A DNA stretch of 64,000 nt. Source: Strigamia acuminata (lineage: Eukaryota; Arthropoda; Chilopoda; Geophilomorpha; Linotaeniidae). Positions within the stretch are counted from its first letter, which is position 1, and each line of letters starts with the position of its first letter. The translations under genes and the position numbers were made by a program. The notes below the pieces were generated by a model. The model did not search any database, was not told the DNA's origin, and saw only the letters and a list, made by a program, of their open reading frames with translations. The stretch spans positions 15,854,517-15,918,516 of the forward strand of contig OX442318.1 in assembly GCA_949358305.1 (NCBI GenBank), given 5' to 3'. Positions 19,125-63,842 of the stretch are shown here, one piece after another.

Positions 19125-22100
19125 TTAAGAATGTCGCGATAGATTGAAATTGAAAATCCGGGAAATCAGGAGACGCAGTTGAGATGAGCCCAACCATTTG
19201 GTAAAAATGTCTGCCACGTTCATTGATCCGGGGACTTTGCGCAATTGGAATGCACCTGCTGTGTACCATTCCCGAATCCAATGAAATTTCACTCGGATAT
19301 GTTTCGTTTTACTGTTCTCCACGTCATTTGATGTGAATTGGATGGAAGAAAGCGCATCGGAGAACACTAAAGGTGGTGAAGATCTATTCAGCATCGGGAC
19401 GGAACTGTAGACGTAATCGAGCCAATACAGCTCACGGACGCACTCAACGAGGGCGACAAACTCCGCCTCCATCGTTGAGCACGCCACGCTGGTTTGTTTA
19501 CGACAACTCCATCCGATGGGGACGTTTCCAATAAAAGCTATATACCCGCCGAAACTCAAAGAAGTGCTGACTTCGGTGGCCCAGGATGCGTCAGTATATC
19601 CCCATAGTTGTCCATTGGAACAATTTGACAGTTCAATTGCATAATCCAAAGTATTGCCTACGTAGCGCACAACCTGCATGAGTGCCTTGATGTGCGTGTG
19701 GTTATAGCAATTGTTAAATTGTGACAACATTATCACTGAGAATAGTATATCAGGACGTGTCCTCGATGCGAGGAAGAGAAGAGAGCCAATTAACGAACGA
19801 TAAGGAAATTCTGGCAAGTCCTCTTTCGACCCTTTGACGAGCGTCGTTCCTGGTGTTACTGGGACCTTGATGAGTTTATCGGCGATAATTTCAAATTTCT
19901 TGAGAATCTTCTGTATATATGCACGTTGGATGATGAAGATTCCCTTGGGAGTACGAATGAACTCTACACCTAAGAGTTTCGTAATTGGTCCTAAATTCAC
20001 GACATCGAATTTGGTGCTGATGAGCGCAATTAATTGTGTAAGGACGTTATCCGTCGCGTAAAATAGAACTATATCATCGACGTATATTAGCATCACGGCG
20101 GAAGTTCCGTATATGTATACACAATTGCATCCTGGTAATCTGCGAAATCCTAAATCGCGCAATGTTTGATCTAATTTTTCAAACCATTGGCGCCCGGACT
20201 GGTGGAGACCATAGAGCGATTTTATTAGGAGCCATACGTGATTTGGATTTGAACATGTTGCACCAGCTGGAATGCGCATATATACTTTGTGCGCAAGATC
20301 GCCGTATAGGTACGCGCACTTCACATCTAAATGCGCGTCCTTCCACCCTTTGAGGACTACTAATAGGCAGAAAAATAGGCGTATGAGAACAAAGTTGACA
20401 ACAGGGCTAAAGACTTCATCGTAGTCTACACCTAAAGTTTGGCGAAAGCCCTGTGCCACTAATCTGGCGCGATATCTGGCTGGTTTGCCTAGAGCATCTT
20501 CCTTCAGTTTGAAGAGCCACTTGCACCCTAATATGGTTGTATTTTCCGGTTTAGGGACCTCTTCATAGACGCCTCTTTCTGCAAAAGTGTCTAACTCTTC
20601 ATTAATGGCTTCCTGCCATTTGGTCGCATCCGGAAATCTCACAGCCTCTGCATAACTAGTGGGATCACGACGACAAAGGTGTACTCTAGGAAGAGGTAAT
20701 GGAAGATCCTCTAATTCGTATTCCATATTGCCAAAATAAAATAGTTCAGGATCATAAGGAATATTATTCATATGACAGAATTCCTCAACGTCACCTCTGG
20801 AACGTAGTCGGAGTCCTGCTTCTGGGAAATAATAAACATCTGTTTTCAATTTGCCAGGTTCCTGTACTTTGCGCAAATGTTCCTCTCTTTTCCAGTGTCT
20901 ACACACTGAATCGCCTCCAACGTAACGCCACTTATATGCAGTTGCAGCTCCAGTTGGAGGTGGACCATGATGCGCTGCTGGATGGGCTTGTGGCGCATTG
21001 CCACGAGAACCTCGACGAGCGTTCACAAAACTTGGTGGCGAACCTGGTGGTGTTCCTGGCGGTGTGTGAGTTGGTGTAGTACCTGGTGTGATAAGTGGGC
21101 TTGGCGCTCGAGATGTCATTGGAGAAATTATTGGAGATAGGACAGGTGTTGGAATCCTAATTGGAGACCCTGGTGGTGTCCGGGCTTGAGCGCCTGGCGG
21201 AGCTGAATCGTCAGAGTCATAGTCTGTATCGCATTCATCTTCCGAATCCGGAAATTTGGGCCAATCGGTATATTCCAACTCGTCGTCAAATCTCACTTGC
21301 GGTTGTGAAATGCGCAATGGTTCATAAATTTGCGACGCTTGATGCGTTTGGTCCAAGTCTGGTCCTGTCCACGGTTCCTGTGGACCTCGATAATGATTTG
21401 AGCGTTTATAGGACTGCCGTTCATCTATTTTGACGTGAATGGACTCGATAACCTTGTTATCTGTTGGATTCCAGACGCGATAACCTCGCGTTGTCGTGGC
21501 GTATCCGACTAAATAACCCTCCCAAGCCCGTGGATCCAATTTGTCCCTGCCGGGCGCTGTATGATGAACCCAGCACTTGGAGCCTAACTTGCGCAGGTGT
21601 CTGAGCGAAAGGGCACGTCGTCGCCACAGGATATAGGGCACCTCATTTTTGAGACGAGAATGAGGACACCGGTTCTTTATGTACGAGAAAGTCACTGCGA
21701 ATTCCGCCCAAAGTTTGTTTGGAAGTCCAGTTTCATCTAGTATGGCACGCGTGTAATCCGCCATGGTACGGTTTATTCGCTCCGCTGTGCCATTCATAGC
21801 GGGGCTATGTGGATTGGTCCTTTGGGCCTGAATTCCGGTCTCTTTTAAATAGCGGTCAAATTCGTTTGATAAGAACTCCCCTCCTCGGTCAGTTCGGATG
21901 GCCTTGACTCGTTTGCCCGTCACTCGTTCAATTCGTGTGACATAGTCCTTAAAGAGTCCAAACACTTGGGATTTTTGGGCCATCGGAAATATCCAGGCAT
22001 AGCGCGTGGCGTCATCGATAATCGTTAACACATAACGCGCGCCTCCGTAGGAAGTCGTTCTTGAAGCTCCCCACACGTCCATGTGTAGGAGATCTAAAGC

Positions 22101-34754: not shown

Positions 34755-37700
34755 ATGCAGAAACCAGCCCATTCTTCGAGTGGTTTGATTCCCGACATGA
34801 AATCGATTGGACTATTCGGGACAACTCCATCGACGGCTCACGCTTCTGAAAAAGGGCAATTCCGTCGACGCAATAAATCTGGCCCTCGTGATCTGTCGAC
34901 TATCAAATGTTTTAATTGCGAACAATTTGGGCACTATGCCAATCGATGTCCGCTCCCACGCCGCCAAAATCAGGGTCAACCAACGGCTTCTCTCCAGCGC
35001 ACGTCCCGCAGTAAAAGTCGTCGACAGAACAAGAACGCGGCTACGAAATCAAATCCCAACCGGCCTCGCGAAAGTTCCCATCCGCATCGAGAGGGGACAT
35101 TTTTCGTCAATGCACCACAGGTCATTCATCCACCAGCTGTCCATTTCATGCAATCCAATGAATGGATAGTAGATTGCGGTGCAACGGACCATGTATCTCA
35201 CGTACGCGCATGGTTCACCGATTTTACTGACGTGATACCGTTTGACATCGAGTTGGGACAGGGCAAGTCCCAAGTTACGGGCAAAGGAACAGTTCGACTT
35301 CTCACCGCAATTGACAAGGCCCGATGTGTTGTTAATTTAACGAATGTTCTCTACGCACCGAATTTCGAAGCAAATTTGATTTCGGTTTCGAAGATTGATA
35401 AGACTCGTCATCACACGCACATCTTTAACGGCGAAATTCACGTGTATCAAACGGACATTCGTAGCCCTCTCATACGAGCAAAAGAGAGAGGTGGATTGTA
35501 TTATGTGGACGGTTTGTGTTCGACACCGACATTTGCGACGACGATTTCTACGCCGGCTCAACCGACAAATATTACGGCGAACGAACCGACCACCCCACCG
35601 GTCCAAACATTCGTAACGACCGAAGAGGATTTTATCAACATCCCGAAACAGAGGAAGGGGAAAAGGCCGATCACGGATTTTCGGATAGAGATGCCAATTG
35701 TTGAAAGAGTGCAACACCCTCCTACCCAACAAGCTCCTATCCCAGTCAATCCGATCCCTCCTCCTGTTCGTACTCCCATACACGCCCTCACCAACCCGCC
35801 TACTCTCCCGTCATATTCAAATGCATTGCAATCAATACCTACTGCAAATTCCTTTCCCTCGCTTGGCGATGCTTCTCAAGTCAAAAAGCAAGTCGTCGCC
35901 AATCCTGCTTCTGTCAAGGATGCCACTGGTTTGTGGCACAGTCGGTTAGGGCATTTGCATACGAATGCGATGAAATTATTGGCCGCTAATGACCAAGTCT
36001 ACGGGATGGAACCGGGAGAAGTACAGCGAGAGCTTGCTTGTAATGATTGCCGTATCGCGAAGTCAACTAGAGCATCGCATAAACCGGATCCGAACCCGAG
36101 TACTTCTAAGCCATTGGACCTCCTCCATATGGACGTTTGGGGACCGGCTCCTACTACATCTTTTGGAGGAGCACGTTTCGTTCTCACGATCATAGACGAC
36201 GCCACCCGTTACTGTTGGATTATTCCATTGGCTCAGAAATCGCAAGTTTTCGCATCTTTCAAAGACTTTGTTGCAAGGGTGGAGCGGATACAAGAAACGA
36301 GCGTCAAAGCCATACGTACTGATCGAGGCGGTGAATTTTTATCAAACGAATTTCTCCGCTACCTTCAGGACAAAGGGATTCAGGGTCAGCGAACGAACCC
36401 ATCATCGCCACAAATGAATGGCACGGCCGAGCGCATAAACAGAACGATGGCCGACAATTTTCGCGCAGTTCTATCCGAAACTAAATTGCCGGAAGCGCTC
36501 TGGGCCGAACTCGCAGTCTCGTTTTCTTATATCAAGAACCGGAGTCCTCATTCACGACTCAACAATCAAGTCCCTTACATCCTTTGGCGGCAGAGAGCAT
36601 TATCATTACGACATTTACGTAAACTGGGCTCCAAATGCTGGGTGCACTTCACGGCACCAGGCCGCAAGAAACTGGATCCCCGGGCCTGGGAGGGGTATTT
36701 AGTCGGCTACGCCACAGGGACCCGTGGATACAGAATTTGGAACCCGGCTGATAACAAAGTCTATGAATCTATCCATGTCAAGGTCGACGAACGACAGTCG
36801 TATCGTAAATCCATCAGAACTTCGACCCAACAACCTGAGGAATCATTTACTAGTCCCGGACAACAGTCAGTTTCATTCAGTGACGATGTCAGGTATCACG
36901 CTTGGCCGAGGGGATCTGACTCCGAAGGATCAAACCGTTCTGATAATGATTCCGATGACAGCAACGGCAACCAGACCTCCACATCTGTGACAATGCACAC
37001 GCCGCCAATTTTTCCGCATATTTTCTTGCCACCTCCGACGACACCGGAACAACTATTGTTGGATCTATGTGCAACCCAACCACCAGGTTCAGCAACGTTG
37101 CGATATTCTCAATCATATCCCAAACTGTACGAAGAGGAAGGAGGTGATACGGCAGATGATGTTGAACCCATTGAGAGTGCATCCATGTATCCGGGCACAT
37201 CTGAATTTACTGGCACATCACCCGACCAATCACCACGTCAAACACCTCCGTCTACGCCTCTTCCGTCGGCGCCACCGTCACCTCGACGCTCAACGCTTCA
37301 TTCTCCTCCACGTGATCCGTTAAGATTTGTTACGACGCGTCGCCAACAACGTGCTGACGATCCCACGTCGCACACGTTACAAGTCTTTGACCCGGCTCCC
37401 ATGTCACCAGCACCTGTATTAGGGACTGAAGTTGCTGCAGCAACTGCTCGCCATACAACTCACATGTGGCGATTCGTCGGTGGCGACGGGGAGTGCAGCG
37501 AGTGGGTCCGTGAAGAACATCTTAGGAAAGATCAAAAACCGGGATCCATTTTAATCGATGTTTATTATTTTCCAACTCCAAAGATTCGACTCAGATCTTA
37601 CAAGGACATTGAAGACTACTGCATGTTGAATAACATCGATTATGAACCCGAACTTTTCTTCTTCGGTAACCTCGAACACAAATTGCCGACTCTTCCGGGC

Positions 37701-38904: not shown

Positions 38905-41900
38905 TTCGATACGATAGTCGATGGTATTGGCCACGTATTGTAGGACTTGGAGCAGGGCTCGGATGTGGGTTTCGTCGTAACACGTATTGAACTGACTCAG
39001 CGAAATGACCGAAAATAAGATGTCGGGGCGAGTTCTCGAAGCAAGAAACAGGAGCGAACCGATGAGAGATCGGTAAGGAAAGTCCGGTAGATTTTCGGTA
39101 GACCCCTTCACGAGCGTCGTCCCGGGTGTGACGGGAACCTTCACGAGGCGATTGATAGAGACCTCGAACTTCTTAACGAGCTTGGTAATGTAGGCGCGTT
39201 GCGTGATGAAGGTTCGCCCAGCGTCTCGGATGAACTCGACGCCCAATAGCCTCGTGATGGGACCAAGATTAACTATGTCGAACTTGGACGAGATAAGCCG
39301 GATGATTCGGGTTAACACGGTGTCGGAAGCGTAGAACAGTACGATGTCGTCCACGTAAACTAGCATGACGGCACAATTGCCGTAAATGTACACACAATTG
39401 CACGCGGGCATCTTCCGAAAACCGAGAGCTCGAAGCGTTCCATCCAACTTTTCGTACCATTCCCTCCCCGATTGGTGAAGTCCGTAGAGGGATTTAACAA
39501 GTAGCCAGACGTTTGCGGGGTTCGAACAAGTTGCACCTGCGGGGATGCGCATGTATACCTTGTGCTTCAGGTCCCCATACAGGTATGCACTTTTGACGTC
39601 GAGGTGAGCATCCTTCCATCCTCTGAGAACGACTAGAAGACAGAAGAATAGTCGGATTAAAACGAAGTTCACGACCGGACTAAAAACCTCGTCGTAATCA
39701 ACCCCGATGGTTTGGCGAAAGCCTTGTGCGACGAGTCGAGCACGATAACGAGTTATTTCGCCGCTTAGATCCGTCTTCAGTTTGAAGATCCATTTACAGC
39801 CTAAAACTGTAGTATTGGGTGGTCTCGGAACTTCCTGATAAATCTGCCTCTCCTTAAAAATCCCCAATTCTTCATTGATGGCTTCACGCCATTTCGGAGC
39901 GTCCTGAAATTTTGGAATTTCCGCATAAGAAGTCGGTTCGGTTCGGCAGAGGTGAACAGCATGTCGCACTGCTGGGATCGTAGGGATGGTATGTTCTATG
40001 CTCCCGAAGAAGAAAAGTTCCGAATCGTATGGAAGGTCGTTCATGGTACAAAACTCTTCGACCTCCTTTCTGGATCTAAGCCGTAGATTCGGTTCCGGAA
40101 AGTAGTAAACATCGGTATCGATACAACCGGGCCGCTGATCCTTCCGTAAATGTTCTTCGCGGACCCATCGACGGAAAATGGTGTCACCACCGATATAACG
40201 CCAGTAGAAAGATGTTCTGCCGACCGAGGGTGCTTCGACAAACGTTGCACCTTGGGGTAATGGAGACATTGCACCTTGGTCGAAGATAGGCATCGTGTGG
40301 TGCAAAATATCCTGGCCGATTCTCCTACGTGTAGTTACAAAACGTAGAGGTGAACCAGGTGGTGAAAGACCGGGAGAACTCGCTTGTGATTCTGCTGAGA
40401 CATGCTGAGATTGAGATTGCTCAAGCATATCCGGTTGGATTGCCTCTTCGCCGATCTGTTCAACATCTTCATCAGTGTCTTGGCCTTCTTCTTGATAAAG
40501 GATAGGATACGATATTGACCGTCCCATACTCGCTGAATCTGGTAATGCCAGCGCACACGCCTCTATTAATTGACGTTCAGGCGTTCTCAACGGGGAAAGG
40601 TGAACACAGGGAATCGATATCGATTTCGAAACGGATCCATTCCCGTTATCATCATCGTCATCATCGTCACTCGATGAATCATCATCAGATTCGACTTTCG
40701 GCCAATCCAAATAAACGGTGTCGTCAAACGACACTCTCTGTTGTTGTTGTTGACCAACTTCGGGTTCTGTGAATGTCTCTTGGCGATGACCATTCCGCGT
40801 TTTAAGCGACTTCCGATATGACTGATGTTCATCAATGCGTACATGGATTGATTCCGTTACGCTATTGTCTATAGGGTTCCACACTCGATAACCACGTGTG
40901 CCAGTGGCGTATCCCACAAGGAAACCTTCCCAAGCACGGGGATCAAGCTTTTTGCGTCCCGGTGCAGTAAAGTGCACCCAGCACTTGGATCCAACTTTCC
41001 TCAGATGACGTAACGAAAGAGCACGCTGGCGCCAAAGGATATATGGGACTTGATTGTTCAAACGAGAATGTGGACTGCGGTTCTTGATGTATGCGAAATT
41101 GACAGCGATTTCGGCCCATAAACCGGCAGGAAGTTTGGTTTCTTCAAGAACAGCCCGGAGATGGTCAGCCATCGTTCGGTTGATCCTTTCGGCTGTGCCG
41201 TTCATTTGAGGGCTCGAAGGGTTAGTCCGCTGACCCTGGATCCCTCTCTCCTTTAGATATTGCAGAAATTCGTTGGACATGAATTCGCCGCCCCTATCAG
41301 ATCGAATGGCTTTCACGCGTGTGTTTGCAACACACTCGACTCGGGCGACGAAGTCCTTAAAACATGAGAAGACCTGGGACTTCTGGGCTAAAGGAGTGAT
41401 CCATGTATATCGCGTCGCGTCATCAATAACCGTAAAAACGAATCGGGCGCCACCAAATGAAGGAACCGGATTTGGCCCCCAGACATCCATGTGCAGGAGA
41501 TCAAGTGGCTTTGAAGTTGAAGGATGCAGATCAGGCTTGTGAGAAGCCCTTATGGACTTTGCAAGTCGGCAATCATTGCACGCCAGTTCCTGTGATACTT
41601 CCGCGGGTTCGAGTCCATATACCTGGTCGTTGTTCGCCAACAATCGCATCGCATTGGTGTGCAAATGTCCTAGGCGACTATGCCACAAACCAGTTGCGTC
41701 TTTTACGGAGGCAGGATTGGCAAGGGTTTTCTTTGGCGTTTGAACAGGATTTGGAATAACCTTCTTTTGTGATTGAGAAGGGTTACCAGCGGATTGGATA
41801 GGAAGAGGAAATGTAACAGGTGGAGGACTAGATGGAATGTGCTGGATTGCGTTGGCGTAGGATTGGATTGGAGGGTTGATGTGGATGGGCAAGGATTGTG

Positions 41901-43428: not shown

Positions 43429-44335
43429 CCTGGCGTGAAAATCCTTCGACCTTGCACACCGCGAAAACACAAAGGCGTAGAGAGTGGTACGGGCGTAGTA
43501 GAAGACACTCGTAGCACTACACAATCCGACGTCACGATCACAAACACTAACCGAAGCACAAGCACTTTCGAGGCGGAAAACCACAAATTGGAAGCCGATG
43601 CTACAATCAGCTGATAACCTAGAGTGAGTGTCCCCCTAGTGTCCTTTGAGATCGCCTGGGATCGCGGGAATACTAGGTGGCGCAGGGCTCAGCCTCACTC
43701 TAGAATACAAATGCAGCTTGGACAGACTTGTCCGAAGGGCTGCACCGATTCTAATAGGGAACCAACCAAAAGCCTTAAATAATATCTTAAAATAACAAAG
43801 TTTCACGACAGGGAAGGAGAAAAGTTGATGAATCTCTCGCGTAACGTCACGCGAGCTCGTGATAAAGGCACGAGCGGGTTTTCTCGAAAAACCCGTTAAA
43901 AGCGCTAATTTGGATTCGAAAATCCAAATTCTTCTCATTAAATGAGGCTCTTCACGAAAATACGCCAAAAATTCGTCGTAATAAATCAGATCGTCGATAC
44001 TGTGCATACGCCGGGGTATGACACAGCGAGAATCGTCTCGTTTCTCGATGAAAAGACGCTATTTTAGCGTTGTCGTGTCGCAAATCGACAAAAACTGAAA
44101 ATAAATAAAAAATTCGACTCAAAATTCGCGAGACCGCGGAATTATGGTCGAAATTAAATGCAGGGTCGCGTGGAAAACAGCACAGACTGCTCTGGAACGT
44201 CGGTAACGTAGCGGCGACGTTCTTCTCACCGAAATCGGGCCGGAAATCGACGTAAACCTAAAACGAAAAATTCGCCGCGAAATTCGCGAAAATTCGCTGA
44301 ATTTTCGGCGAAAATTAGTGGCAAAAGAATAGCTA
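43429..44335 (-). other. Leader of D, with structured RNA
   Basis: Same arrangement as the E leader. The stem P1 is at 43619-43628 with 43694-43703 and P0 follows to about 43746. CpG-rich palindromes near 44265-44320. Confidence 0.65.
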
Positions 44336-50112: not shown

Positions 50113-53100
50113 ATGTGTTTTGTGCCATCACTAAATATATTAGTGAGTGTGGTGTTGTTGAGCGGTACACGTTTTGTGCATACAGTGTTTTATGCAATAA
50201 GAAGGTCTTTAACAGACAATGTGCATGCCTGCAACAAGCAGACAATGGATGACACACACAAGGCACAATTGAAGATGGAAACACATGGACAGAATGTCTT
50301 TAACGGACAGGCAGTGTATAACGCACTTAATGAACACTTGAAAAGGAAAATTAGTGTTCTTGGAAAAGAGAAATTTGATTTGTGTTTTGATTATGACAAA
50401 AGTGTATTGTTACTAACCCACTTAGTCTGTAAGAGCGCATTAACAGAAAACATTGATGTTATGGCAGGGGCCATTAGTGATCTAGTTTTGACACTTTGTA
50501 AAATGCATGTGCATAAAGGGGAAGCAAATGGGGTTAGCAGTAACAAAGTGCAGGGCACTAGTGATGGTAATCAGAACAGCAACGTGGTTGATTCAAATGT
50601 GATTTTGAATGCCATGGATGATGTGCAAAACATCAAATCCCAACATGAATACGGGGATTTAGAATATTTGAACAAGGTTCAAATTAGAAAAGGAAATAAA
50701 GAATTGAATTTCACCACAATTAAAGGTGGTAACCCCCTTAATTCTGTTAAAACAAAGGAAGAAATTAGGCCTAAATTCACAGAAATGGAACATTCAAACC
50801 GGGTTCGGAATGAAAAGAGAGAGGGGGACCCAGATAATATGAAAAAGGGTTTTGTTAGCAATAGGAAATTGCATGGTGCAACCTTAATTAAGGGAAGTGG
50901 TCTTCCAAAGGGGATTTCAGGGAAATCCAAAAGAGGTTTGAGTAACCAAAAGTCAAGTATGACAAGAATTAAACCAAATGATCCCTTGAATTCTGATGCT
51001 AGAAATCAGAAAAAGAGTTCTAAAAATGTTACAAAGCGGAAAGAAAAGTTTTACAAGGACAGGGCTCTTCCATTCTCATTGTGGCATACCCGGATGGGGT
51101 ATTTAAATGAGGAAAGTGTTTACGCCATGAATGGGTCACAAGATGTTTTTGGTGTTCAATTGGAGAACACAGGGACCTCTCCTATGACAGGAGATTTGGC
51201 AAAGAAGAATGTTCTTCCAACACGGATGAATAAAGCAAATGGGACATTGGATTTGGTACATCTGAGTGTCTGGGATGTCCCACATGCACAGGGAGACAGA
51301 TATGTCGTATTTGTTGATGACCATTCGGAATATGTTTGGTTAAGACCGCTAAAGAAGAGTGTACTGGGTGAATTTCAAGAATGGTTATTTGAAATTAGAC
51401 AAATAATGGAGAAAATAGTTAGGAAAATTAGATTAGGTCCCGAGATAACTTCTTCACAAGAGGAATGGAATGAATTCACCCAAGTTAGAGGAATTGAAAT
51501 TGATGAAGAGGTATTTGATGATTTAGATGTCAATTCCATCTCAAAAAGGACAAATGAGAATATCACAGAAAGAGTGGAAATTTTAATTTTGGAAAATGGA
51601 TTTCCAAGCAATTTGTGGTTGGAGATGGCCAACACAATGGTTTACTTGTGGAATAGGACCCCCAGGATTAGTTTGGATTGGAAATCCCCGTACAATATAT
51701 TGTATAACAGATGCATTTCTGTGCGACACCTGAGGTGTATTGGGTCAAAAGTTAAGGTGTTTTATGTTAAGGATGGACTGAAACACTCCTTGGTGGGTGC
51801 CTTAATTGGGTATTCAAAATTTGGTAGGAAATATCGGATATGGGATCCGGAAAGGAACAGAGTATTTCAGTCAAATAATGTTAAGATACATGAGTGGAGT
51901 TATTGGCACGAGGGGGAATTGAAACCCTCTCTGAAAGTTTCCAACAGTTGCAATAGTTGCATTGAGAGTTTGAAAGCTGAAATTTCATCGAAGGTTGGTG
52001 TGCCAATATCCCCTCACCAAGAAGCCCCATCAACATTAGACTTGTTGGAATTAGAAAATCCGCCATTGTCGTTAAGTAAAGAAGTCGACATTAATGAGTG
52101 TGAAATTATTGAAAACGAGGGGGAACTCTTAGAGAGAATTGAATGTGATCTCTTAAAGACACATGTTGATTCCAAAGTGGAAACGGATGCGTTTTCTAGA
52201 GTTGATAAAGTTGGTTTGTCGACACCTAGGGAAGTTGACAGAGAAGGAGTTTATGAGGAAAATCTGCCATTGTTACCGAGCGGAGAAATTTACGTTGATA
52301 AGTGCGAAAGCATTGAAAACGAGGGAAAACACTTAGGAACATTTGTCACAAGTGATGAAGAGGTTTATGAGGGACTTACTTGTGAACAGGAATCTTCCTC
52401 TTTAGTGAATACAGTGGAAGATAAAATTTCCCCATCATCAAGCGAGGATAAAATGATTAAGACAGAGGGGGAGTTTGAAAGGGATTTTAGCAATAAGGAG
52501 AATAATTTGCCAATAGAAATCCCTCCAGAGTTAACACATGAGGAGTCTGAGCCAATTGCAAACGAAAGGGAAAAATTGGAACAGTTTACATTGGAAATTG
52601 AGCCCAATTCTGATGAAGGGTTTGGGCAGTTTGATCCCTTGACAGTTTGTGAAATCTCTTCGACGTCACTGGAGGATGACATTTCCCCAACACCGATAGA
52701 GACTACGGGTGTGAGTGACTACAAATCCATTGGGATAGAGGGGGAATGCCTAAAGACTAAAAGACGTAAGAAAAGATGTAAGAAAGCTAAGAATATTGCT
52801 TTAATGAAAACAAATGACGATGAATATCAATTAACGGTTAATGAACCGATATTGGATGATGAAATAACTAAAATTGAACAGAACTTAAGTCTCACGGCTG
52901 AGAACGACATGGGCGTAAGACTTAAACAAGACTTAGATATGAGTAGGTGGTGGAGACAAGCCACAACACACCAAATAGATAGTTACACAGAATGGGTCAG
53001 TGTTATCTATATTTCACCGAGCAATGACCGGCTTAAGACTATGAGTGATGTGAAAAGGTGGTGTGTTGCGGAAGATTATGTATTTGATTTAAGTCTATTC

Positions 53101-53208
53101 GATTTTTGTAACAGGGATCCAGTACACCCAGCATATCCTGTTTGTAACATGAGGTTGATTGAACTCAAGAATTCAAAAATAATCAGAGACAAATCCATTG
53201 AATTCTGA
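50113..53208 (+). CDS. B ORF: copia-derived protein with inactivated integrase and no RT
   Basis: About 1,031 residues from ATG 50113 (or 988 from ATG 50245; choice open. The first start adds a hydrophobic stretch, SLNILVSVVLL). The N-terminal 300 residues show no CCHC knuckle and no protease motif. From about 322 a copia integrase is recognisable but its functional residues are replaced: zinc-finger second His is Tyr (WHTRMGYL), both Cys are gone, HMDVW is HLSVW (about 384), the second Asp is Gly (IRLGPE, about 440), the Glu is Lys (SISKRTN, about 477). The region after the core (VRHLRCIGS; LVGALIGYS; WDPERNRVF) is well kept. Then a long acidic segment (about 640-880) with repeated IENEG-like motifs, a basic KTKRRKKRCKKAK patch (about 880), and a degenerate MBD-like end (942-1000: SVIYISPSND ... 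DVKRWC ... LFDFCN). Stops before any RT. CpG-poor, unlike its leader. Confidence 0.85.
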   Translation: MCFVPSLNILVSVVLLSGTRFVHTVFYAIRRSLTDNVHACNKQTMDDTHKAQLKMETHGQNVFNGQAVYNALNEHLKRKISVLGKEKFDLCFDYDKSVLLLTHLVCKSALTENIDVMAGAISDLVLTLCKMHVHKGEANGVSSNKVQGTSDGNQNSNVVDSNVILNAMDDVQNIKSQHEYGDLEYLNKVQIRKGNKELNFTTIKGGNPLNSVKTKEEIRPKFTEMEHSNRVRNEKREGDPDNMKKGFVSNRKLHGATLIKGSGLPKGISGKSKRGLSNQKSSMTRIKPNDPLNSDARNQKKSSKNVTKRKEKFYKDRALPFSLWHTRMGYLNEESVYAMNGSQDVFGVQLENTGTSPMTGDLAKKNVLPTRMNKANGTLDLVHLSVWDVPHAQGDRYVVFVDDHSEYVWLRPLKKSVLGEFQEWLFEIRQIMEKIVRKIRLGPEITSSQEEWNEFTQVRGIEIDEEVFDDLDVNSISKRTNENITERVEILILENGFPSNLWLEMANTMVYLWNRTPRISLDWKSPYNILYNRCISVRHLRCIGSKVKVFYVKDGLKHSLVGALIGYSKFGRKYRIWDPERNRVFQSNNVKIHEWSYWHEGELKPSLKVSNSCNSCIESLKAEISSKVGVPISPHQEAPSTLDLLELENPPLSLSKEVDINECEIIENEGELLERIECDLLKTHVDSKVETDAFSRVDKVGLSTPREVDREGVYEENLPLLPSGEIYVDKCESIENEGKHLGTFVTSDEEVYEGLTCEQESSSLVNTVEDKISPSSSEDKMIKTEGEFERDFSNKENNLPIEIPPELTHEESEPIANEREKLEQFTLEIEPNSDEGFGQFDPLTVCEISSTSLEDDISPTPIETTGVSDYKSIGIEGECLKTKRRKKRCKKAKNIALMKTNDDEYQLTVNEPILDDEITKIEQNLSLTAENDMGVRLKQDLDMSRWWRQATTHQIDSYTEWVSVIYISPSNDRLKTMSDVKRWCVAEDYVFDLSLFDFCNRDPVHPAYPVCNMRLIELKNSKIIRDKSIEF

Positions 53209-54553: not shown

Positions 54554-55457
54554 TAGCTATTCTTTTGCAACTAATTTTCGCCGAAAATTCAGCGAATTTT
54601 CGCGAATTTCGCGGCGAATTTTTCGTTTTAGGTTTACGTCGATTTCCGGCCCGATTTCCGTGAGAAGAACGTCGCCGCCACGTTACCGACGTTCCAGAGC
54701 AGTCTGTGCTGTTTTCCACGCGATCCTGCATTTAATTTCGACCATAATTCCGCGGTCTCGCGAATTTTGAGTCGAATTTTTATTTATTTTCAGTTTTCGA
54801 CGGATTTTCGTCTCGACGACGTTTATACGACGATTTTCAACGGAAACGAGACGTTTCTCGCTTTATACACCCCGGCGTGTATATAGTATCGACGAATTCA
54901 CGACGATTTATTTATTTTCAACGCATTTTTGTGAAGAGCCTCATTTAATGAGAAGAATTTGGATTTTCGAATCCAAATTAGCGCTTTTAACGGGTTTTTC
55001 GAGAAAACCCGCTTGTGCCTTTATCACGAGCTCGCGTGACGTTACGCGAGAGATTCATCACCTTTTCTCCTTCCCTGTCGTGAAACTTTGTTATTATAAG
55101 ATATTATTTAAGGCTTTTGGTTGGTTCCCTATTAGAATCGGTGCAGCCCTTCGGACAAGTCTGTCCAAGCTGCATTTGTATTCTAGAGTGAGGCTGAGCC
55201 CTGCGCCACCTAGTATTCCCGCGATCCCAGGCGATCTCAAAGGACACTAGGGGGACACTCACTCTAGGTTATCAGCTGATTGTAGCATCGGCTTCCAATT
55301 TGTGGTTTTCCGCCTCGAAAGTGTTTGTGCTTCGGTTAGTGTTTGTGATCGTGACGTCGGATTGTGAAGTGCTACGAGTGTCTTCTACTACGCCCGTACC
55401 ACTCTCTACGCCTTTGTGTTTTCGCGGTGTGCAAGGTCGAAGGATTTTCACGCCAGG
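54554..55457 (+). other. Leader of E
   Basis: CpG-rich palindrome modules near 54580-54620 and 54750-54800, each followed by TTTTAGG or TTTTCAG and GACGTTC-like words. The last 700 bases are almost identical to the leader of A. No gene supported. Confidence 0.6.
55142..55267 (+). promoter_or_regulatory. Structured leader RNA of E
   Basis: P0: TGCAG (55142-55146) with CTGCA (55170-55174), with GGACA/TGTCC inside. P1: CTAGAGTGAG (55183-55192) with CTCACTCTAG (55258-55267). P2: CCTAGT (55209-55214) with ACTAGG (55246-55251). P3 candidate: GATC/GATC (55223-55236). Reference for the covariation comparison with C. Confidence 0.75.
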
Positions 55458-58400
55458 ATGCAGAAATCCGGATACGCGGAACCAACGGCTGGGAAATGCC
55501 CGATGTTAGGAATAAACAATTACGAACAATGGCGTCGTTCCATGTGCATGCTCTTAAAGTCAGAAGGCCTTTGGAGACATGTCACCGAAGAAAAAGAGGC
55601 CGAATATTTATTGACATTAACCCCGAAAGAGACTGAGAAATACAAACTGAAGAAAGACAAGGCGTTGGGACACATTTATTGTCACGTGAGCGAAGCAAAA
55701 CGCTCCACACTGGACAACGCCAATACCCCGAAAGAAGCTTGGGACATTTTGTCGAAAATCTTCGCTCCCAGTTCTCTGGCTCGTCAAGCAGCCATGAGAT
55801 GGCAATTTTTGGGCTTACACCTCGAGCCAAACGAGGATATGGTCGATTTCGTGAGTCGCGTTAATCTGCACGTACGCCAACTACGAGACATGGAAGAAGA
55901 AGTGTCGGATAAGCATCATGCTTACCAGTACTTACATCGTTTACCTCCGGAATATGCTCAGGCCACGTTTGCGATATACAATTGGCCCGTGGCAAATTTT
56001 ACACCGGACAAAGTATCCGAACAGCTCATATCCGAGTACCTTCGCCTCAAATCCGTAGGACTACATAATGTGTCAGCGTCGGCTCACGCGGCTAATCAAA
56101 ATCCACAACAATCTCGTCAAGGTTCTCGTCCGCGTCGTCCATTATCGCAGGTCAAATGCTTTAATTGTGACGAAATGGGTCACTATGCGAATAAGTGCCC
56201 ATATCCAAAACGCGACAACCGAAGTCAACAACCGGCAGCATCTTTTCAACGCTCTCGCAGCAAGAGCAAGAAGCGTGGCAAGAACTCGGCTCCCAAACCC
56301 GAGGACAATCGCCCGAGAGGAAGTTCGCATCCGGTTCGCAACGCAGTGTTTTTCGTGAACGCTCCGCTGATGATTGAACGTCCCATTGCCCATCTGATGC
56401 AGTCACATGAATGGATAGTCGACTGCGGTGCCACAGACCATGTTTCCCACGTACGGTCGTGGTTTTCCGATTTCTCAGACATCGTCCCTTTTGACATCGA
56501 GTTGGGACAAGGGAAATCACAAGTGACTGGCCGAGGAAATGTCCTATTGCAGACTCGTGTGGACAATTCTCATTGCAATGTGACGTTAACGAATGTGCTT
56601 TATGCACCCAATTTCGAGGCAAATTTAATCTCCGTCTCAAGGATCGATAAGACTAATCACCATATCCATACCTACAACGGGGAGATTAATATTTACAAAT
56701 CGAACATTACTGAAACAATTCTAAGAGCCAAGGAAAAAGGAGGATTGTATTACCTGGATGGGTTGTGTACAAATCCAACTGTTGCAGCTACGTCTTCACC
56801 GATAATTCAACAACCGCCGGTACAGACATTCGTTACGACGGAAGTTGATTTCGTGAATATTCCAAAGCCGAAGAAGCAGAAGTCTATGCAACCAAACATC
56901 ACGGATTTTAGGATTCAAATGCCGCCATTGCCTGCGACTGAGGTGCCAACGTCAATTTCGGTTGCCACTAATTCTTTACCCGTGCCACAATCCTTGCCCA
57001 TCCACATCAACCCTCCAATCCAATCCTACGCCAACGCTATCCAGCACATTCCGTCTAGTCCTCCACCTGTTACATCTCCTCTCCCTATCCAATCCGCTGG
57101 TAACCCTTCTCAATCACAAAAGAAGGTTATTCCAAATCCTGTTCAAACGCCAAAGAAAACCCTTGCCAATCCTGCCTCCGTAAAAGACGCAACTGGTTTG
57201 TGGCACAGTCGCCTAGGACATTTACACACCAACGCGATGCGATTGTTGGCGAACAATGATCAGGTATATGGACTCGAACCCGCGGAAGTATCACAGGAAC
57301 TGGCGTGCAATGATTGCCGACTTGCAAAGTCCATAAGGGCATCTCACAAGCCTGATCTGCATCCTTCAACTTCAAAGCCACTTGATCTCCTGCACATGGA
57401 TGTCTGGGGGCCAAATCCGGTTCCTTCATTTGGTGGCGCCCGATTCGTTTTTACGGTTATTGATGACGCGACGCGATATACATGGATCACTCCTTTAGCC
57501 CAGAAGTCCCAAGTCTTCTCATGTTTTAAGGACTTCGTCGCCCGAGTCGAGTGTGTTGCAAACACACGCGTGAAAGCCATTCGATCTGATAGGGGCGGCG
57601 AATTCATGTCCAACGAATTTCTGCAATATCTAAAGGAAAGAGGGATCCAGGGTCAGCGGACTAACCCTTCGAGCCCTCAGATGAACGGCACAGCCGAAAG
57701 AATCAATCGAACGATGGCTGACCATCTCCGGGCAGTTCTTGAAGAGACCAAACTTCCTGCCGGTTTATGGGCCGAAATCGCTGTCAATTTCGCATACATC
57801 AAGAACCGAAGTCCACATTCCCGTTTGAATAACCAAGTGCCATACATACTTTGGCGACAGCGTGCCCTTTCCCTGCGTCATCTGAGAAAAATCGGATCTA
57901 AGTGCTGGGTGCACTTCACCGCACCGAGACGCAGAAAGCTCGACCCCCGTGCTTGGGAAGGTTTCCTCGTGGGATACGCCACTGGCACACGTGGTTATCG
58001 AGTATGGAACCCTGTGGACAATAGCGTAACGGAATCAATCCATATACGCATTGATGAACATCAGTCATATCGGAAGTCGCTTAAAACGCGGAATGGTCAT
58101 CGTCAAGAGACATTCACAGAACCCGAGGTTGGTCAACAACAACAACGAGTGTCGTTTGACGACACCATTTATTTGGATTGGCCAAAAGCCGAATCTGATG
58201 GTGATTCATCGAGTGACGATGATGACGATGATGATAATGGGAATGGATCGGTTTCGAAGTCGATATCGATTCCCTGTGTTCACATTTCTCCGTTGAGAAC
58301 GCCTGAACGTCAATTAATAGAGGCGTGTGCACTGGCATTACCAGATTCAGCGAGTATGGGACGATCAATATCGTATCCTATCCTTTATCAAGAGGAAGGC

Positions 58401-58478
58401 CAAGACACTGATGAAGATGTTGAACAGATCGGCGAAGAGGCAATCCAACCGAATATGCTTGAGCAATCTCAATCTTGA
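55458..58478 (+). CDS. gag-pol: E gag-pol, first 1,006 codons, cut by F
   Basis: ATG at 55458 (MQKSGYAEP...). Full Gag, CCHC CFNCDEMGHYANKC (about 233), protease IVDCGATDH (321), integrase zinc finger WHSRLGH ... CNDC (581), HMDVW (647), SDRGGEF (709), GTAERI (744), then an acidic Asp-rich linker. F is inserted before the MBD-like and RT regions, and the frame stops at the first F codon. No stop earlier, so it was a complete-looking element before F arrived. Confidence 0.92.
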   Translation: MQKSGYAEPTAGKCPMLGINNYEQWRRSMCMLLKSEGLWRHVTEEKEAEYLLTLTPKETEKYKLKKDKALGHIYCHVSEAKRSTLDNANTPKEAWDILSKIFAPSSLARQAAMRWQFLGLHLEPNEDMVDFVSRVNLHVRQLRDMEEEVSDKHHAYQYLHRLPPEYAQATFAIYNWPVANFTPDKVSEQLISEYLRLKSVGLHNVSASAHAANQNPQQSRQGSRPRRPLSQVKCFNCDEMGHYANKCPYPKRDNRSQQPAASFQRSRSKSKKRGKNSAPKPEDNRPRGSSHPVRNAVFFVNAPLMIERPIAHLMQSHEWIVDCGATDHVSHVRSWFSDFSDIVPFDIELGQGKSQVTGRGNVLLQTRVDNSHCNVTLTNVLYAPNFEANLISVSRIDKTNHHIHTYNGEINIYKSNITETILRAKEKGGLYYLDGLCTNPTVAATSSPIIQQPPVQTFVTTEVDFVNIPKPKKQKSMQPNITDFRIQMPPLPATEVPTSISVATNSLPVPQSLPIHINPPIQSYANAIQHIPSSPPPVTSPLPIQSAGNPSQSQKKVIPNPVQTPKKTLANPASVKDATGLWHSRLGHLHTNAMRLLANNDQVYGLEPAEVSQELACNDCRLAKSIRASHKPDLHPSTSKPLDLLHMDVWGPNPVPSFGGARFVFTVIDDATRYTWITPLAQKSQVFSCFKDFVARVECVANTRVKAIRSDRGGEFMSNEFLQYLKERGIQGQRTNPSSPQMNGTAERINRTMADHLRAVLEETKLPAGLWAEIAVNFAYIKNRSPHSRLNNQVPYILWRQRALSLRHLRKIGSKCWVHFTAPRRRKLDPRAWEGFLVGYATGTRGYRVWNPVDNSVTESIHIRIDEHQSYRKSLKTRNGHRQETFTEPEVGQQQQRVSFDDTIYLDWPKAESDGDSSSDDDDDDDNGNGSVSKSISIPCVHISPLRTPERQLIEACALALPDSASMGRSISYPILYQEEGQDTDEDVEQIGEEAIQPNMLEQSQS

Positions 58479-58941
58479 AGAGTTGCAATGGCCTGTGCGC
58501 TGTCGAAATAACTCGGAAACATCATTTTGGCTGGGCGGATAAATCGGACACGCGTCCGCCATCTTTTATTACAAAAGTAAGTGTGTTACATAAAAACCCG
58601 GTTCGAGGCTAATCGCCCTCGATCTCAAACACAATGAAATTATAGAACAAATCATTGTTTCAATACACTGACTTGTTCTTTACAGAAAGACAAAACTAAT
58701 GGATAAAACAAACAGAACAACATAAACAGTAAGTGCTCATTTGAGCAGATGACAGGCTGTGTGTGTTGTCACGTAATAGGAGTCGGTTGCGGTACAAAAC
58801 CAGCATTGGGATTAAAAAACAGAATCAACCGACTGCAGTACGGGACATCAACATGGCAACACACTGATTGCATTTATCCACAATATGCAATCTGGTAATC
58901 CACGCGGATGCGAGGACAAACAGGAAAACGTCAACCTAACA
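58479..58941 (-). repeat. 3' LTR of F
   Basis: 463 bp, minus-strand TGTTAGGTTGACG ... CAACTCTTCA. GATGGCGG (minus) near 58555-58563 resembles the YY1/Pho motif. Internal similarity to the solo LTR at 17590-18074. Confidence 0.85.
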
Positions 58942-58958: not shown

Positions 58959-61900
58959 CTATTTGTCAATTACAAAGGTGTATTCGCATAGCGCGTTCAA
59001 TCTGGATTTAGCTAACCATTTCGTCAGAATATCCGCAACATTTAATTCGCCGGAAACATGCTCGATCAAAAACGTTCCTTTCTCAAACCAATCTCTAACG
59101 AAATGGAGCTTCACGTCTATATGTTTATTTGCCCTGTTCTCGATCCTATTCTTACAGTATTGGATAGCCGGCTGGCTATCCGCAAAAACACAGGGCGTAT
59201 TTCGCTCGAGACAAAACATTATTTTCGCGTCGTAAAGGCGCTCGAGCCAAATAACTTCTTTCACCCCATCGACCACGGCGAGAAATTCGCTCTCCATGAT
59301 CGACAGGGAGGTCATCGATTGTTTGTGGCAATTCCACGAAATGGGAATGCCACCCATATAGACAATATGTCCCCCAAAGCTTCGTCGTCTGTCTTGATCT
59401 AGGGCAAACGACGCGTCGGTGTAAACTGTCAAGTTCTCGTTTTTACAGTTCGATAAGTTAATCGAATAATTCGACGTGGTGGCCAAATATCGCAGGACCT
59501 GCAGTAACATATTGACATGGCGCGTCGAATGCGTCTCGTTATACTGGGAAAGCACTATTACTGAAAACAGTATGTCGGGTCTGGTTCGGCTGGCGATGAA
59601 CAACAGACTTCCGACCAGAGATCTGTACGGGAATGAGGTGTCGACTTTTTCTCCGGTTCTTACACTTTGAATCATCGTTCCCGGGTTTACTGGAACCTTT
59701 ACTCGATGGCACGAGTCAATCCCGTACGCTTTACAAAGCTTTTCAATATATTTCCGTTGGTGGATTTTAATCATGCCCCCGGACCTATCAAACTCGATTC
59801 CTAAAAGTAAAGTTACGGGCCCCAGACTCACTACTTCAAACGATTCCCGTAACCACTTCAAAACGCATTGTTCCACATAGTCATCCTTGGAAAACAACAC
59901 GATATCGTCCACGTAAAAGACGACTATCGCATCGTTGTCTAGGGCATAGACACAGTTTAAACCCAACAACGGTTGAAAGCCCAATTCAAGTAGTCGTATG
60001 TGGAGGACCTGGTACCACATACGACCGGACTGGTGTAATCCATAAAGTGCTTTTAAAAGCATCCAGCATTTATGCTTATTATGGGCGGTACGATATCCCT
60101 TGGGGATCTCCATGTACTGTACCGTATCGAGGTCCCCGTAAAGGTACGCGGCCTTGATATCCAGGTGTAAATCCCGCCATCCCTTGAGTATCACCAAAGT
60201 GCAAAAGAACACTATCACTAGCACAAAGTTGACGACGGGGGAGAACACCTCCGTAAAGTCAACTCCGGGCTTTTGCTTAAAGCCCTGTGCGACGAGTCGG
60301 GCTCGGTAGCGTTGGATAACACCCGTGTGGTCGCGCTTCATTTTGTATATCCATTTCGATCCCAAGAGAGTCGTACCCTCGTCTAAAGTTGTTTTGTCAA
60401 CTTCCTTGTAAACCGTTCTTTCATCGAACACATCAATTTCCTCTCTCATGGCTTTTATCCAATCAGGACGTTTGACGTGGTACATGGCTTCTTCGTAGGT
60501 TTCCGGCTCGACGGCACAGAAACCTGCAAACCCTAACGGTTCACCGTCCCCCTCTAATGTCTTAAAGTCAAATAAGGTCGCATCATATGCGTACCCTTCT
60601 TCATCGCACCACCGTGCGATATCAACTCGACTTCTTATCTTATCCTTTAAGGGCGTGATGTAAACAACATCTATTTGTCCCGCCGTCGCTCCGTCTTTGC
60701 GGACGGATGCGCGTCGTTCCCATTCCGCCATGTTTAACGGCAGTAGTTCCGGATGTAACATCACGTTCCCTTGCTTCTTCTTTGATCGTGATCCACGCCG
60801 TGTTTGAATCCCAGGAGGAATTTCAGGTTCCCCATCATTGTCAGGATAGATGTTGAAGTAATTCCCATCATCCCCCTTCGCCCCACCAATTTCTTCAACA
60901 GGCTCATCCCCTGTATCCCCGTCCCCAAGAATAGGGTTCCCCTCAACGGGCATGAGTGGGGGTTGCTGAGCTGCCTGTTTAGCGACTGGCCTCAATTCAG
61001 GTCTAAAAGTAGGCTTTGGGGTCGTGGGCAATGCGGGTTTCACTTTTTGCTGTGGAACAGGTTGTGGAACTTCCTGTATCGCAAGAGGGGGTTCCGGAAT
61101 CTCCGGAACTTCTAGGACCTCCGGGATCCCCGGAGCTTTCTGAATTATCGGGTCGCCAGCCACACTGTCGTCGTCAGAAAATGACCCATTGAACGAGTCC
61201 GAACTCGAAGTATCAAAGTCATTATCCAATTCAGGCGACGTGACTGTCCCTAATTCAAACCAGAAATTGTTTTCAAAAATTTTGACGTGTTTAGACAAAA
61301 ACACCTGATTTTTATTCGGATCCCAAATTCTATAGCCGCGTGTAGAAGCGGCGTATCCAATTAATGCCCCAGCCCATGCCCTGTCTTGTAATTTCCCACC
61401 CCGAGTCTGAGATGGGATATGGACATAAGTTAATGAGCCAATGCACTTGACATGGCGAAGGGACAATTTCTTATTATAAAACACAGAATAAGGTGTTTTC
61501 CCACCAATTCCCGTATGTGGAAAACGGTTTTTCAGATATACAACTGAAACGGCAAGCTCTGCCCATAGAGTGGCGGGAAATTTATTCTCAAAAAGAAGTG
61601 CCCGAGTACCATTAAGGATGGTACGGTTCGCCCGTTCGGCGACCGAATTCATTTCTGGGCTGTATGCATTAGTCCTCATACACTTAAGCCCAATTGTCGC
61701 CACATAATTGTCCCATTGTCTAGATACAAACTCCCCTCTATTATCAGTTTTTATAGCCTTTACCTTCTTAGAATTCGTTCGCTCAACTTCAAGTAGCCAC
61801 CGCTTGAAATGTCCTAAAACGTCACTTTTCCGTTTCATGATGATTATCCACATAAAGCGGGAAAAATCATCGATGAGAATGAGATAATAGTACGCCCCAC

Positions 61901-63842
61901 CCAATGTTTGAACTGGCGCGGGGCCCCACACGTCTAAGTGCACTATTTCCAAAATACTTTTTGTCGTAATTCCAATTATTGGGGGAAAACTAGCACGTGT
62001 ACTCTTCGCCCTGGCGCAAAAGTCACACGTCGACAACTCCTTATTCGAGAGTTTCAGCCCAAAAACATCAGTTGACTTTTCTAATCCCGCAATTCCCTTT
62101 GCATTTAAATGCCCTAGGCGGGAGTGCCAAATGTCCATCGTTTGAGCCTTATCTTTCTTGTCAAAAGTTTTAACCCCATTAGTAGAATTGTTCCCATTCT
62201 CTGCTTTGTCTGCATTGTTCTGCACAATTGAACTTGCCTCCTTAGAGGCATTGGCAGTCTTTGCCTTAATTTTATTCGAAACATTCGCTTGCGCATTAGT
62301 CGTAACATTCGCAGGCGCGTTGTTCGCAACACTCGCTTGCCCCTTTATCGCTGGTGCAGGTTTCCCTGACTCACTCGAATTTTGGGTTAATGCGTCCTTA
62401 AAACTAGGGTATGTTAGTATCGAATTTACAACTTCATCGCCTTTTATAAGCGGACTAGAAGACACTGTCGCAGCCTGTTGCGCAGGTAATGCGGCAGTGT
62501 TCACAGGGGAAATACGACAATTGACCTTATACATCCGATCACTCGTGCGTTCCGCAGTGATGGAAGGGTCATCAATTTTGTCGTTATAAATAACCATTTT
62601 GCCATTTTTAATCATGGTCGTTGCCCCAGCTTCATCCGTGCGACCCAACGAAATCAAATTCTTCCTAAAGTTGGGTGCATAAAATACATTATGCAATGTA
62701 ATTGCACGGGTGCGGGTTCCATAAATCGATGTCAACGTCACATTTCCTATTCCTTCGATTCTCGACTTTCCTTCTCCCTGTTGCACGTGGCCAGTTAATG
62801 GCTTGAAGTCGGAGAACCAGTCTTTGTTGAAGGAGAAATGGTCCGTCGCCCCTGTGTCGACGTACCATTGCGAATCATAATTCGCGTGAGACACGTGGGA
62901 AGCCGGCACAGGGGGTTGTTGTTGAAGCCAAATCGCCGCGGAGTAATAAGAGACTGGAGAGTCACTGAATATGTCAGCCTGTGTGACAGTGGCCTTTTGC
63001 TGGCCTCTTCCACGTCCCTTGCCCCGTGGATTGCATCTAAATTGTCCAGTTTGGTTTCCTTTTGCTTGGAATTGCTGTTTCGGTGGAGTAGGGCATTCAC
63101 GGGCGAAGTGGCCCGTCCCACCGCAAGTAAAACAGATGCGTGGGCCGCCGGGTGCATTTCCACCACGTCCGCGTTGTCTTCCGCCTTGGTTAAAGAAGGC
63201 ACCAGTGTTTTCCAATGGCGCCTTGGAAGGCACGCCAAACTCGTCGGTTGTTACATGTAGGCGGTTGTATTCGCCTACCAGGCGTTCCTTGACCGCTGCT
63301 GCCGTGAACTCTGTGTCACCCCAGTGATAAACCGTCTGCTTGACCGGTTCGTATTGGGGTGGCAGCAGGTCAAGATATTGAAAGGCGTGAAACTCATCAG
63401 AAATTTGAATCTTGACATCTGCAAGCTGTACTACTTTCCGATCAACACGTGCGGTGAAAACAAACATCTCTTCGTTTTCATGCAACCGCATGTCTAAAAA
63501 TTCCCTGCGAAGACGGGCTTTGCGTGCCCGGGTCGTGGGCTGGTAGGCAGCTTTCAGTGCCTCCCACACTTCTTTAGCAGTGGCCTGGGCAACCGCCACG
63601 ACCTGTTGGGCCTCGCCGCAAGCCAAACAAATGGTGGAGCGGGCCCTTTCTTCGCCTTTCTCAAAATCCCTTGTCTCTCGAAACGGTGATCCGGCCGGCG
63701 GCTCTTTTGTCTTGCCGGTCACGTGGCCCCAAACACCGTACGATTGGAGGAGGAGCTGTACCTGTACGCTCCAGGTCGGATAGTTGGTTCCGTCCAACTT
63801 TTTCACGTCCTTGTAATCATCATGGCGGTCGTAGGACGCCAT
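58959..63842 (-). CDS. gag-pol: F gag-pol polyprotein, about 1,627 aa, Ty1/copia with MBD
   Basis: ATG at 63842 (MASYDRHDD...); 14 upstream codons are open but lack a good start. Order (approximate residues): Gag (NYPTWSVQVQLLLQSYGVW; RKARLRREFLDMRL), CCHC CFTCGGTGHFAREC (237-250), protease YVDTGATDHF (327), integrase zinc finger WHSRLGH ... CDFC (570-610), HLDVWGP (636), KTDNRGEF (698, Arg where Gly is usual), VAERANRT (734), Pro-rich linker, MBD (1037-1097: WERRASVRKDG ... AGQIDVVYITP ... KIRSRVDIARW ... LFDFKT), RT with YVDD (about 1308), RNase H with TDASFA (1472) and MESEF. Uninterrupted with all catalytic residues seen; the best candidate for activity here. Confidence 0.96.
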   Translation of the reverse strand: MASYDRHDDYKDVKKLDGTNYPTWSVQVQLLLQSYGVWGHVTGKTKEPPAGSPFRETRDFEKGEERARSTICLACGEAQQVVAVAQATAKEVWEALKAAYQPTTRARKARLRREFLDMRLHENEEMFVFTARVDRKVVQLADVKIQISDEFHAFQYLDLLPPQYEPVKQTVYHWGDTEFTAAAVKERLVGEYNRLHVTTDEFGVPSKAPLENTGAFFNQGGRQRGRGGNAPGGPRICFTCGGTGHFARECPTPPKQQFQAKGNQTGQFRCNPRGKGRGRGQQKATVTQADIFSDSPVSYYSAAIWLQQQPPVPASHVSHANYDSQWYVDTGATDHFSFNKDWFSDFKPLTGHVQQGEGKSRIEGIGNVTLTSIYGTRTRAITLHNVFYAPNFRKNLISLGRTDEAGATTMIKNGKMVIYNDKIDDPSITAERTSDRMYKVNCRISPVNTAALPAQQAATVSSSPLIKGDEVVNSILTYPSFKDALTQNSSESGKPAPAIKGQASVANNAPANVTTNAQANVSNKIKAKTANASKEASSIVQNNADKAENGNNSTNGVKTFDKKDKAQTMDIWHSRLGHLNAKGIAGLEKSTDVFGLKLSNKELSTCDFCARAKSTRASFPPIIGITTKSILEIVHLDVWGPAPVQTLGGAYYYLILIDDFSRFMWIIIMKRKSDVLGHFKRWLLEVERTNSKKVKAIKTDNRGEFVSRQWDNYVATIGLKCMRTNAYSPEMNSVAERANRTILNGTRALLFENKFPATLWAELAVSVVYLKNRFPHTGIGGKTPYSVFYNKKLSLRHVKCIGSLTYVHIPSQTRGGKLQDRAWAGALIGYAASTRGYRIWDPNKNQVFLSKHVKIFENNFWFELGTVTSPELDNDFDTSSSDSFNGSFSDDDSVAGDPIIQKAPGIPEVLEVPEIPEPPLAIQEVPQPVPQQKVKPALPTTPKPTFRPELRPVAKQAAQQPPLMPVEGNPILGDGDTGDEPVEEIGGAKGDDGNYFNIYPDNDGEPEIPPGIQTRRGSRSKKKQGNVMLHPELLPLNMAEWERRASVRKDGATAGQIDVVYITPLKDKIRSRVDIARWCDEEGYAYDATLFDFKTLEGDGEPLGFAGFCAVEPETYEEAMYHVKRPDWIKAMREEIDVFDERTVYKEVDKTTLDEGTTLLGSKWIYKMKRDHTGVIQRYRARLVAQGFKQKPGVDFTEVFSPVVNFVLVIVFFCTLVILKGWRDLHLDIKAAYLYGDLDTVQYMEIPKGYRTAHNKHKCWMLLKALYGLHQSGRMWYQVLHIRLLELGFQPLLGLNCVYALDNDAIVVFYVDDIVLFSKDDYVEQCVLKWLRESFEVVSLGPVTLLLGIEFDRSGGMIKIHQRKYIEKLCKAYGIDSCHRVKVPVNPGTMIQSVRTGEKVDTSFPYRSLVGSLLFIASRTRPDILFSVIVLSQYNETHSTRHVNMLLQVLRYLATTSNYSINLSNCKNENLTVYTDASFALDQDRRRSFGGHIVYMGGIPISWNCHKQSMTSLSIMESEFLAVVDGVKEVIWLERLYDAKIMFCLERNTPCVFADSQPAIQYCKNRIENRANKHIDVKLHFVRDWFEKGTFLIEHVSGELNVADILTKWLAKSRLNALCEYTFVIDK

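Follow-up and report, generated by a model that had tools for sequence, protein, structure and literature searches.

A methyl-CpG-binding domain in the Gag-Pol protein of a Ty1/copia element of Strigamia acuminata, and the loss of the methyl-sensing tyrosine in its clade

Introduction

Does a Ty1/copia retrotransposon of the centipede Strigamia acuminata carry a methyl-CpG-binding domain (MBD) within its polyprotein, and what might such a domain do for the element? The question is raised by element F, one of several copia elements in a stretch of 64,000 nucleotides of contig OX442318.1 (assembly GCA_949358305.1, positions 15,854,517 to 15,918,516 of the forward strand), hereafter the window. 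An earlier reading of the letters alone, the original prediction, had proposed an MBD between the integrase and the reverse transcriptase (RT) of F on the basis of a series of short motifs.

Results

Identification of the MBD of element F

58962..63842, minus strand: Gag-Pol open reading frame (ORF) of element F, Ty1/copia, uninterrupted, 1627 aa
60561..60728, minus strand: MBD of element F, residues 1039-1094, from Pfam PF01429, a match to MBD1 in the PDB, alignment and predicted fold

The predicted motifs are present in the order given, on the minus strand within the uninterrupted 1627-aa copia ORF. The encoded domains run gag, CCHC zinc knuckle, Pol_BBD, GAG-pre-integrase, integrase, SH3, linker, MBD and RVT_2 (the RT), and Pfam places copia domains on both sides of the MBD (SH3 at residues 789-862, RVT_2 at 1155-1386), in agreement with the proposed position. 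With a gag, an integrase ahead of the RT, long terminal repeats (LTRs) and a short target duplication, F has all the features by which a Ty1/copia element was judged.

The whole F protein matches Pfam MBD (PF01429) with 34.3 bits and E 1.8e-8 over residues 1039-1094, and a 93-aa piece of it with 39.5 bits and E 4.4e-10, against a curated cut-off of 21 bits. In the Pfam scan of F no other match covers the stretch. The closest sequence of solved structure in the PDB is human MBD1 (E 9.4e-10). In the predicted structure the domain adopts an MBD fold, the 43 best fold matches being MBD/TAM domains, and the best VIA matches are to MBD4. Sequence profile and predicted fold thus both identify the stretch as an MBD, as the original prediction had proposed. 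A search of a large protein set with F residues 1015-1150 gave 159 candidates, none at E 0.001, and the relatives described below were therefore obtained from this genome only.

Alignment shows that the residues of the CpG-contacting face are kept in F as R1048, D1058, R1070 and S1071, that is, two arginine fingers, the Asp and the Ser. The Asp and Ser take part in the CpG-binding face of MBDs. In MBD1 numbering we take these positions to be R22, D32, R44 and S45, and the methyl-sensing tyrosine to be Y34 (Tyr178 of MBD2). The second arginine finger and the Asp had been recognised correctly, whereas the first finger had been read as Ala; alignments to MBD1 and MBD2 rule this out and identify the finger as the Arg of RKDG, R1048. 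The residue that has changed is the methyl-sensing tyrosine, two residues past the Asp, which in F is V1060 (60663-60665); this tyrosine, characteristic of the MBD1/MBD2 type, is present in the neighbouring elements A, B, D and E. Compared with human MBD1, MBD2, MBD4 and MeCP2, F therefore has the same profile, fold, arginine fingers, Asp and Ser, but differs in Val for Tyr, in Gln at the position of MBD2 Lys174, and in a helix region 3 residues longer than that of MBD1/2. For MeCP2 the arginine fingers are given as R111 and R133 (PMC4977486, in excerpt).

A putative docking arm behind the integrase

The original prediction knew of no MBD in such an element. A 2019 report had, however, announced in its title that a family of arthropod retrotransposons captured a functional MBD (de Mendoza, Pflueger and Lister 2019, Genome Res 29:1277), and a retrotransposon MBD is accordingly not without description. 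That work is cited elsewhere for a relatively recent transposable element (TE) family in S. maritima that acquires high methylation (PMC7343188, in excerpt). The trait that defines the 2019 family in its title, an MBD inside an arthropod retrotransposon, is found in F, and F thus belongs to an already reported kind.

Our preferred reading is that F is a full-length Ty1/copia element of this reported kind whose MBD likely reads DNA as an arm that follows the integrase and would dock the incoming element at CpG-dense repeats prior to integration; we assign this a probability of roughly 0.6. The MBD follows the integrase SH3 and a long linker and precedes the RT, a place where a targeting module could sit. 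It would remain with the integrase after processing, would bind CpG DNA and, through chromodomain-like docking on CpG-dense repeat DNA, could guide integration.

Element F is nested in another MBD-copia

58476..58941, minus strand: 3' LTR of F (466 bp); the 5' LTR has the same sequence
58471-58475: target-site duplication AATCT, where the E-type flanks of F overlap by 5 bp
55416..58478, plus strand: first half of the E-type MBD-copia split by F, with E-type homology stopping at 58475

The 5' LTR lies past the end of the window, still on this contig (locus L057), and the pair is recovered as a 471-bp match at 100% in which a few shared flanking bases are counted; the LTR ends were placed by us from this match and from the 5-bp overlap of the flanks, which resemble element E (below). 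The second half of the interrupted copia, its MBD included, resumes in L057 beyond F. Element F is a full-length insertion nested inside another MBD-copia and, given identical LTRs and a 5-bp duplication within this relative, the insertion appears recent. Over 900 bp around the MBD, the median difference among the 30 top F copies is 1.45%.

MBD-copias in the window and the genome

The MBD is not special to F. The domain or an altered form of it occurs in five further copia ORFs of the window, with Pfam scores over the cut-off for A and B:

13968..14138, minus strand: MBD of element A (ORF 12378-17195), Pfam MBD E 1.2e-4, 22.1 bits; R, D, Y, R, S kept
20727..20897, minus strand: MBD of element B (ORF 19128-23954), Pfam MBD E 1.1e-4, 22.2 bits; the same 57-aa domain as in A
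37500..37670, plus strand: MBD of element D (ORF 34719-38990), alignment only; R, D, Y, R, S kept
40000..40170, minus strand: MBD of element E (ORF 38881-43584), alignment only; R, D, Y, R, S kept
52945..53115, plus strand: MBD-like domain of element C (ORF 50107-53208), alignment

Pfam MBD at E 0.01 gave no match in C, D or E. A local MBD profile was seeded with A, C, D, E and F, whose matches to it consequently arise by construction; links independent of the seeds come from Pfam in the case of A, B and F and, in that of C, from the match of a 91-aa piece to K-type MBD places (E 9.8e-12). In C all five DNA-contact positions are altered (H, S, I, K, T). From its ORF of 1033 aa Pfam recovers SH3 alone at E 0.01, neither gag nor integrase core nor RT giving a match, and C may for that reason belong to a non-autonomous lineage. 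Counting C itself, copies are found at 5 places with 99-100% identity and at 25 with at least 60%.

The chromosome-level genome (237,517,015 bases, 157 contigs) was then considered as a whole. All 150 of the best matches scored in the Pfam MBD search, from 1092 candidates, exceed the cut-off, many of them within open frames longer than 1500 aa. The 93-aa F piece gave 35 rows at 100% identity, F included, among the best 150 of 1365 candidates, and for the corresponding E piece the best 150 of 1315 were scored. MBD-copias occupy at least 363 distinct places and fall into several lineages, with classes drawn from the matches listed. The F class consists of the 68 matches above a drop in identity from 84% to 74%; the classes K1623 (K1618 pooled in), K1627 and Q were set from the Pfam MBD and F-piece searches by score, identity and open-frame length, with representatives read. 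Of the Pfam MBD search, these classes leave aside a divergent group (L001-L007), a W family (1626 and 1628 aa), a few singletons (L082 and C8:449981 among them) and, in addition, a probable host exon at C3:20309085. The divergent copias score higher on Pfam MBD (L001 46.9, L003 47.7 and L004 44.3 bits). MBD-free copias also exist in the genome: four loci (L095-L098) have the same domain order with no Pfam MBD match at E 1.

A clade without the methyl-sensing tyrosine

Contact residues were tabulated in 24 rows, comprising 21 copias, human MBD1 and MBD2 and the host MBD2/3 (exons joined by us); a fragment (L002) and near-duplicates were left aside. The positions R22, D32, R44 and S45 are kept in 20 of the 21 copias, the exception being element C. 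The tyrosine is present in 12 and is otherwise replaced by V in five (F, three K types and L005), I in two (the Q type and C) and W in two. In an RT tree F clusters with the K and Q types (support 91/95), and a second cluster unites A, D and E (86/91); both clusters recur in the MBD tree (99/97 and 100/99), from which the domain and the RT appear to have travelled together. The RT tree includes two MBD-free rows, both from one family. Element C sits on a long branch and is placed with the F clade, among weakly supported deep branches; deep support is weak in the 24-row MBD tree as well.

The ratio of non-synonymous to synonymous substitution rates (dN/dS) in the MBD is 0.03-0.28 between lineages in the 6 pairs, out of 14, for which dS is finite (it is saturated in the other 8), and 0.05-0.28 within the F clade, again where dS is finite (5 of 9 pairs). 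Together, conservation of the arginines and the low dN/dS speak for DNA binding. They also count, as do the R, D, R and S positions kept nearly throughout, against the MBD being a passive leftover, which we regard as highly improbable; element C could be cited in its favour, as its copies persist despite the lost contact residues, but C is perhaps non-autonomous and under other constraints.

Lacking the methyl-sensing tyrosine, the F clade is predicted to prefer methylated over plain CpG less strongly than the tyrosine-bearing clade (A, B, D and E). Taken further, the F-clade domain might be a CpG reader nearly blind to methylation, binding CpG-dense DNA in either state, an alternative that we consider possible though not favoured. 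The tyrosine is replaced in 8 of 8 F-clade rows besides C (V in five, I in one, W in two) with R, D, R and S retained, and the low dN/dS within the clade points the same way. Exchange of this Tyr for Phe sharply lowers both methylation selectivity and affinity in MBD3 and reduces the affinity of chicken MBD2 about 50-fold (PMC4176167, in excerpt), and Tyr178 and Lys174 of MBD2, where F has V and Q, are named as critical residues, both for affinity and for selectivity towards methylated DNA (PMC4381075, in excerpt). In MBD4, on the other hand, this residue points away from the DNA, and its exchange for Phe (Y109F) has little effect (PMC4176167); the longer helix region of F and its best VIA matches to MBD4 mean that loss of the tyrosine may matter less here. 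Somewhat doubtful, in our view, is the wider proposition that replacement by Val, Ile or Trp turned a methyl-CpG reader into a methylation-blind CpG reader across the clade, such that one genome would hold two sister strategies, one tracking methylation and the other CpG density alone.

Distribution along the chromosomes

The preferred reading of a docking arm was compared with the positions of the elements. One zone per autosome was defined from Gypsy matches alone, with chromosome sizes exact for six and rounded for C6, C9, C10 and C11 (from a published table or the match range). The lists hold the best 150 matches each and copies are clustered, so that the positional tests overstate independence. 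Among the autosomal matches listed, 139 of 230 MBD-copias lie in a zone, as against 13 of 135 copias taken as MBD-free. The latter class is the best 150 RVT_2 matches, of which the four loci named above were read and 146 assigned by proxy (shorter open frames and RVT_2 scores of at least 233 bits, compared with 177-203 bits in six MBD-copias with a full RVT_2 match); 3 of the 150 sit within 5 kb of an MBD match. On the Y chromosome the corresponding shares are 48/363 for MBD-copias, 4/150 for MBD-free copias and 28/150 for Gypsy. By best-150 lists, the contig taken as the Y (C13, 4.4% of the genome) holds 28/150 E-type, 28/150 Gypsy and 4/150 MBD-free copia matches. The distribution fits MBD-linked accumulation in certain chromosome regions.

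Weighing against a docking role is the behaviour of the MBD-free Gypsy elements, which are about as concentrated (57/94 listed autosomal matches in the zones, which were fitted to Gypsy); with Gypsy distributed alike, targeting is not separated from survival and is inferred only. The concentration could instead reflect selection against insertions elsewhere, with the MBD serving another step, for example on the element's own cDNA or with a host chromatin partner. The Gypsy distribution accords with this, as does a published title that gives NuRD components, and not mCpG, as what the MBD binds in human MBD3. We consider it unlikely, because the copias taken as MBD-free belong to the same superfamily and are scattered along the chromosomes, and because a role in protein contacts alone would not require the observed conservation of both arginine fingers.

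By class, the in-zone counts among the matches listed are 34/45 for F, 23/38 for K1623, 27/45 for K1627, 13/21 for Q and 42/81 for E. Pooled, the tyrosine-less classes (97/149) differ little in location from E (p 0.066), which speaks against a methylation-blind reader in the F clade.

Host methylation context

The host genome has 6 DNMT1-RFD matches and one MBD2/3-type gene, recognised by an MBD_C match. In that gene (L073, C5:5733000-5742999) the methyl-sensing tyrosine position holds Phe (DVFYY). Vertebrate MBD3 likewise has Phe at this position. A further MBD/TAM-like exon, probably from a host gene, lies in L074 (C3:20308000-20312000) and is presumably BAZ2-like, as judged by eye. Taken per 4 kb, CpG observed/expected across the window is 0.81-1.61. 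Copies of F and E showed no excess of CpG transitions as a trace of methylation decay, with ratios of 1.0 for F (435 of 435 pairs from 30 copies, the top matches, so that the youngest are favoured) and 0.7 for E (the 249 of 435 pairs that diverge by less than 15%). In S. maritima a fraction of 0.758 of 719 TEs fell in the highly methylated group (PMC7343188).

Other features of the window

The ORFs of D (plus strand) and E (minus strand) overlap tail to tail at 38878-38990, and each breaks off inside the RNase H part, an arrangement resembling a breakpoint junction. Copia ORF starts recur with different truncations on the plus strand (34719 and 47080; 25887 and 55416), hinting at local duplications or nested insertions. 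An ORF at 7106-8626 (minus strand, 506 aa) has an S/H/R-rich start and a Cys-rich middle.

Discussion

The 2019 study reportedly dealt with Copia elements of S. maritima and a spider, and its MBD is said to have been assayed and to bind methylated CpG-dense DNA, with steering of integration proposed. Going by the title, the family shares with F a captured MBD in an arthropod retrotransposon; the genome here differs in being that of S. acuminata. The clade with V, I or W for the tyrosine is possibly already covered there, as is the C lineage with its lost contact residues. A literature search, which the full text of the 2019 study lay outside, found no description of a tyrosine-less MBD-copia clade, nor did the term CopiaMBD occur in the literature searched. 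As far as checked, the V/I/W clade that keeps both arginines, the Asp and the Ser appears to be new, as does the nested F with its identical LTRs.

In the chromoviruses of the Ty3/Gypsy superfamily a chromatin-reading chromodomain lies near the integrase C-terminus. F differs in belonging to another superfamily and in having the fold of a DNA-methylation reader rather than a reader of histone methylation. Chromodomain-directed integration is the subject of a published title. The DNMT-carrying retrotransposons of dinoflagellates and charophytes (PMC5890265, in excerpt) have, like F, taken in a DNA-methylation protein, a writer there and a reader in F; according to the same excerpt, DNMT is absent from the Copia elements of Symbiodinium.

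This single genome holds natural variants of the MBD that are tyrosine-bearing, tyrosine-less and contact-less, together with MBD-free copias as controls, and these make methylation-guided site choice testable.
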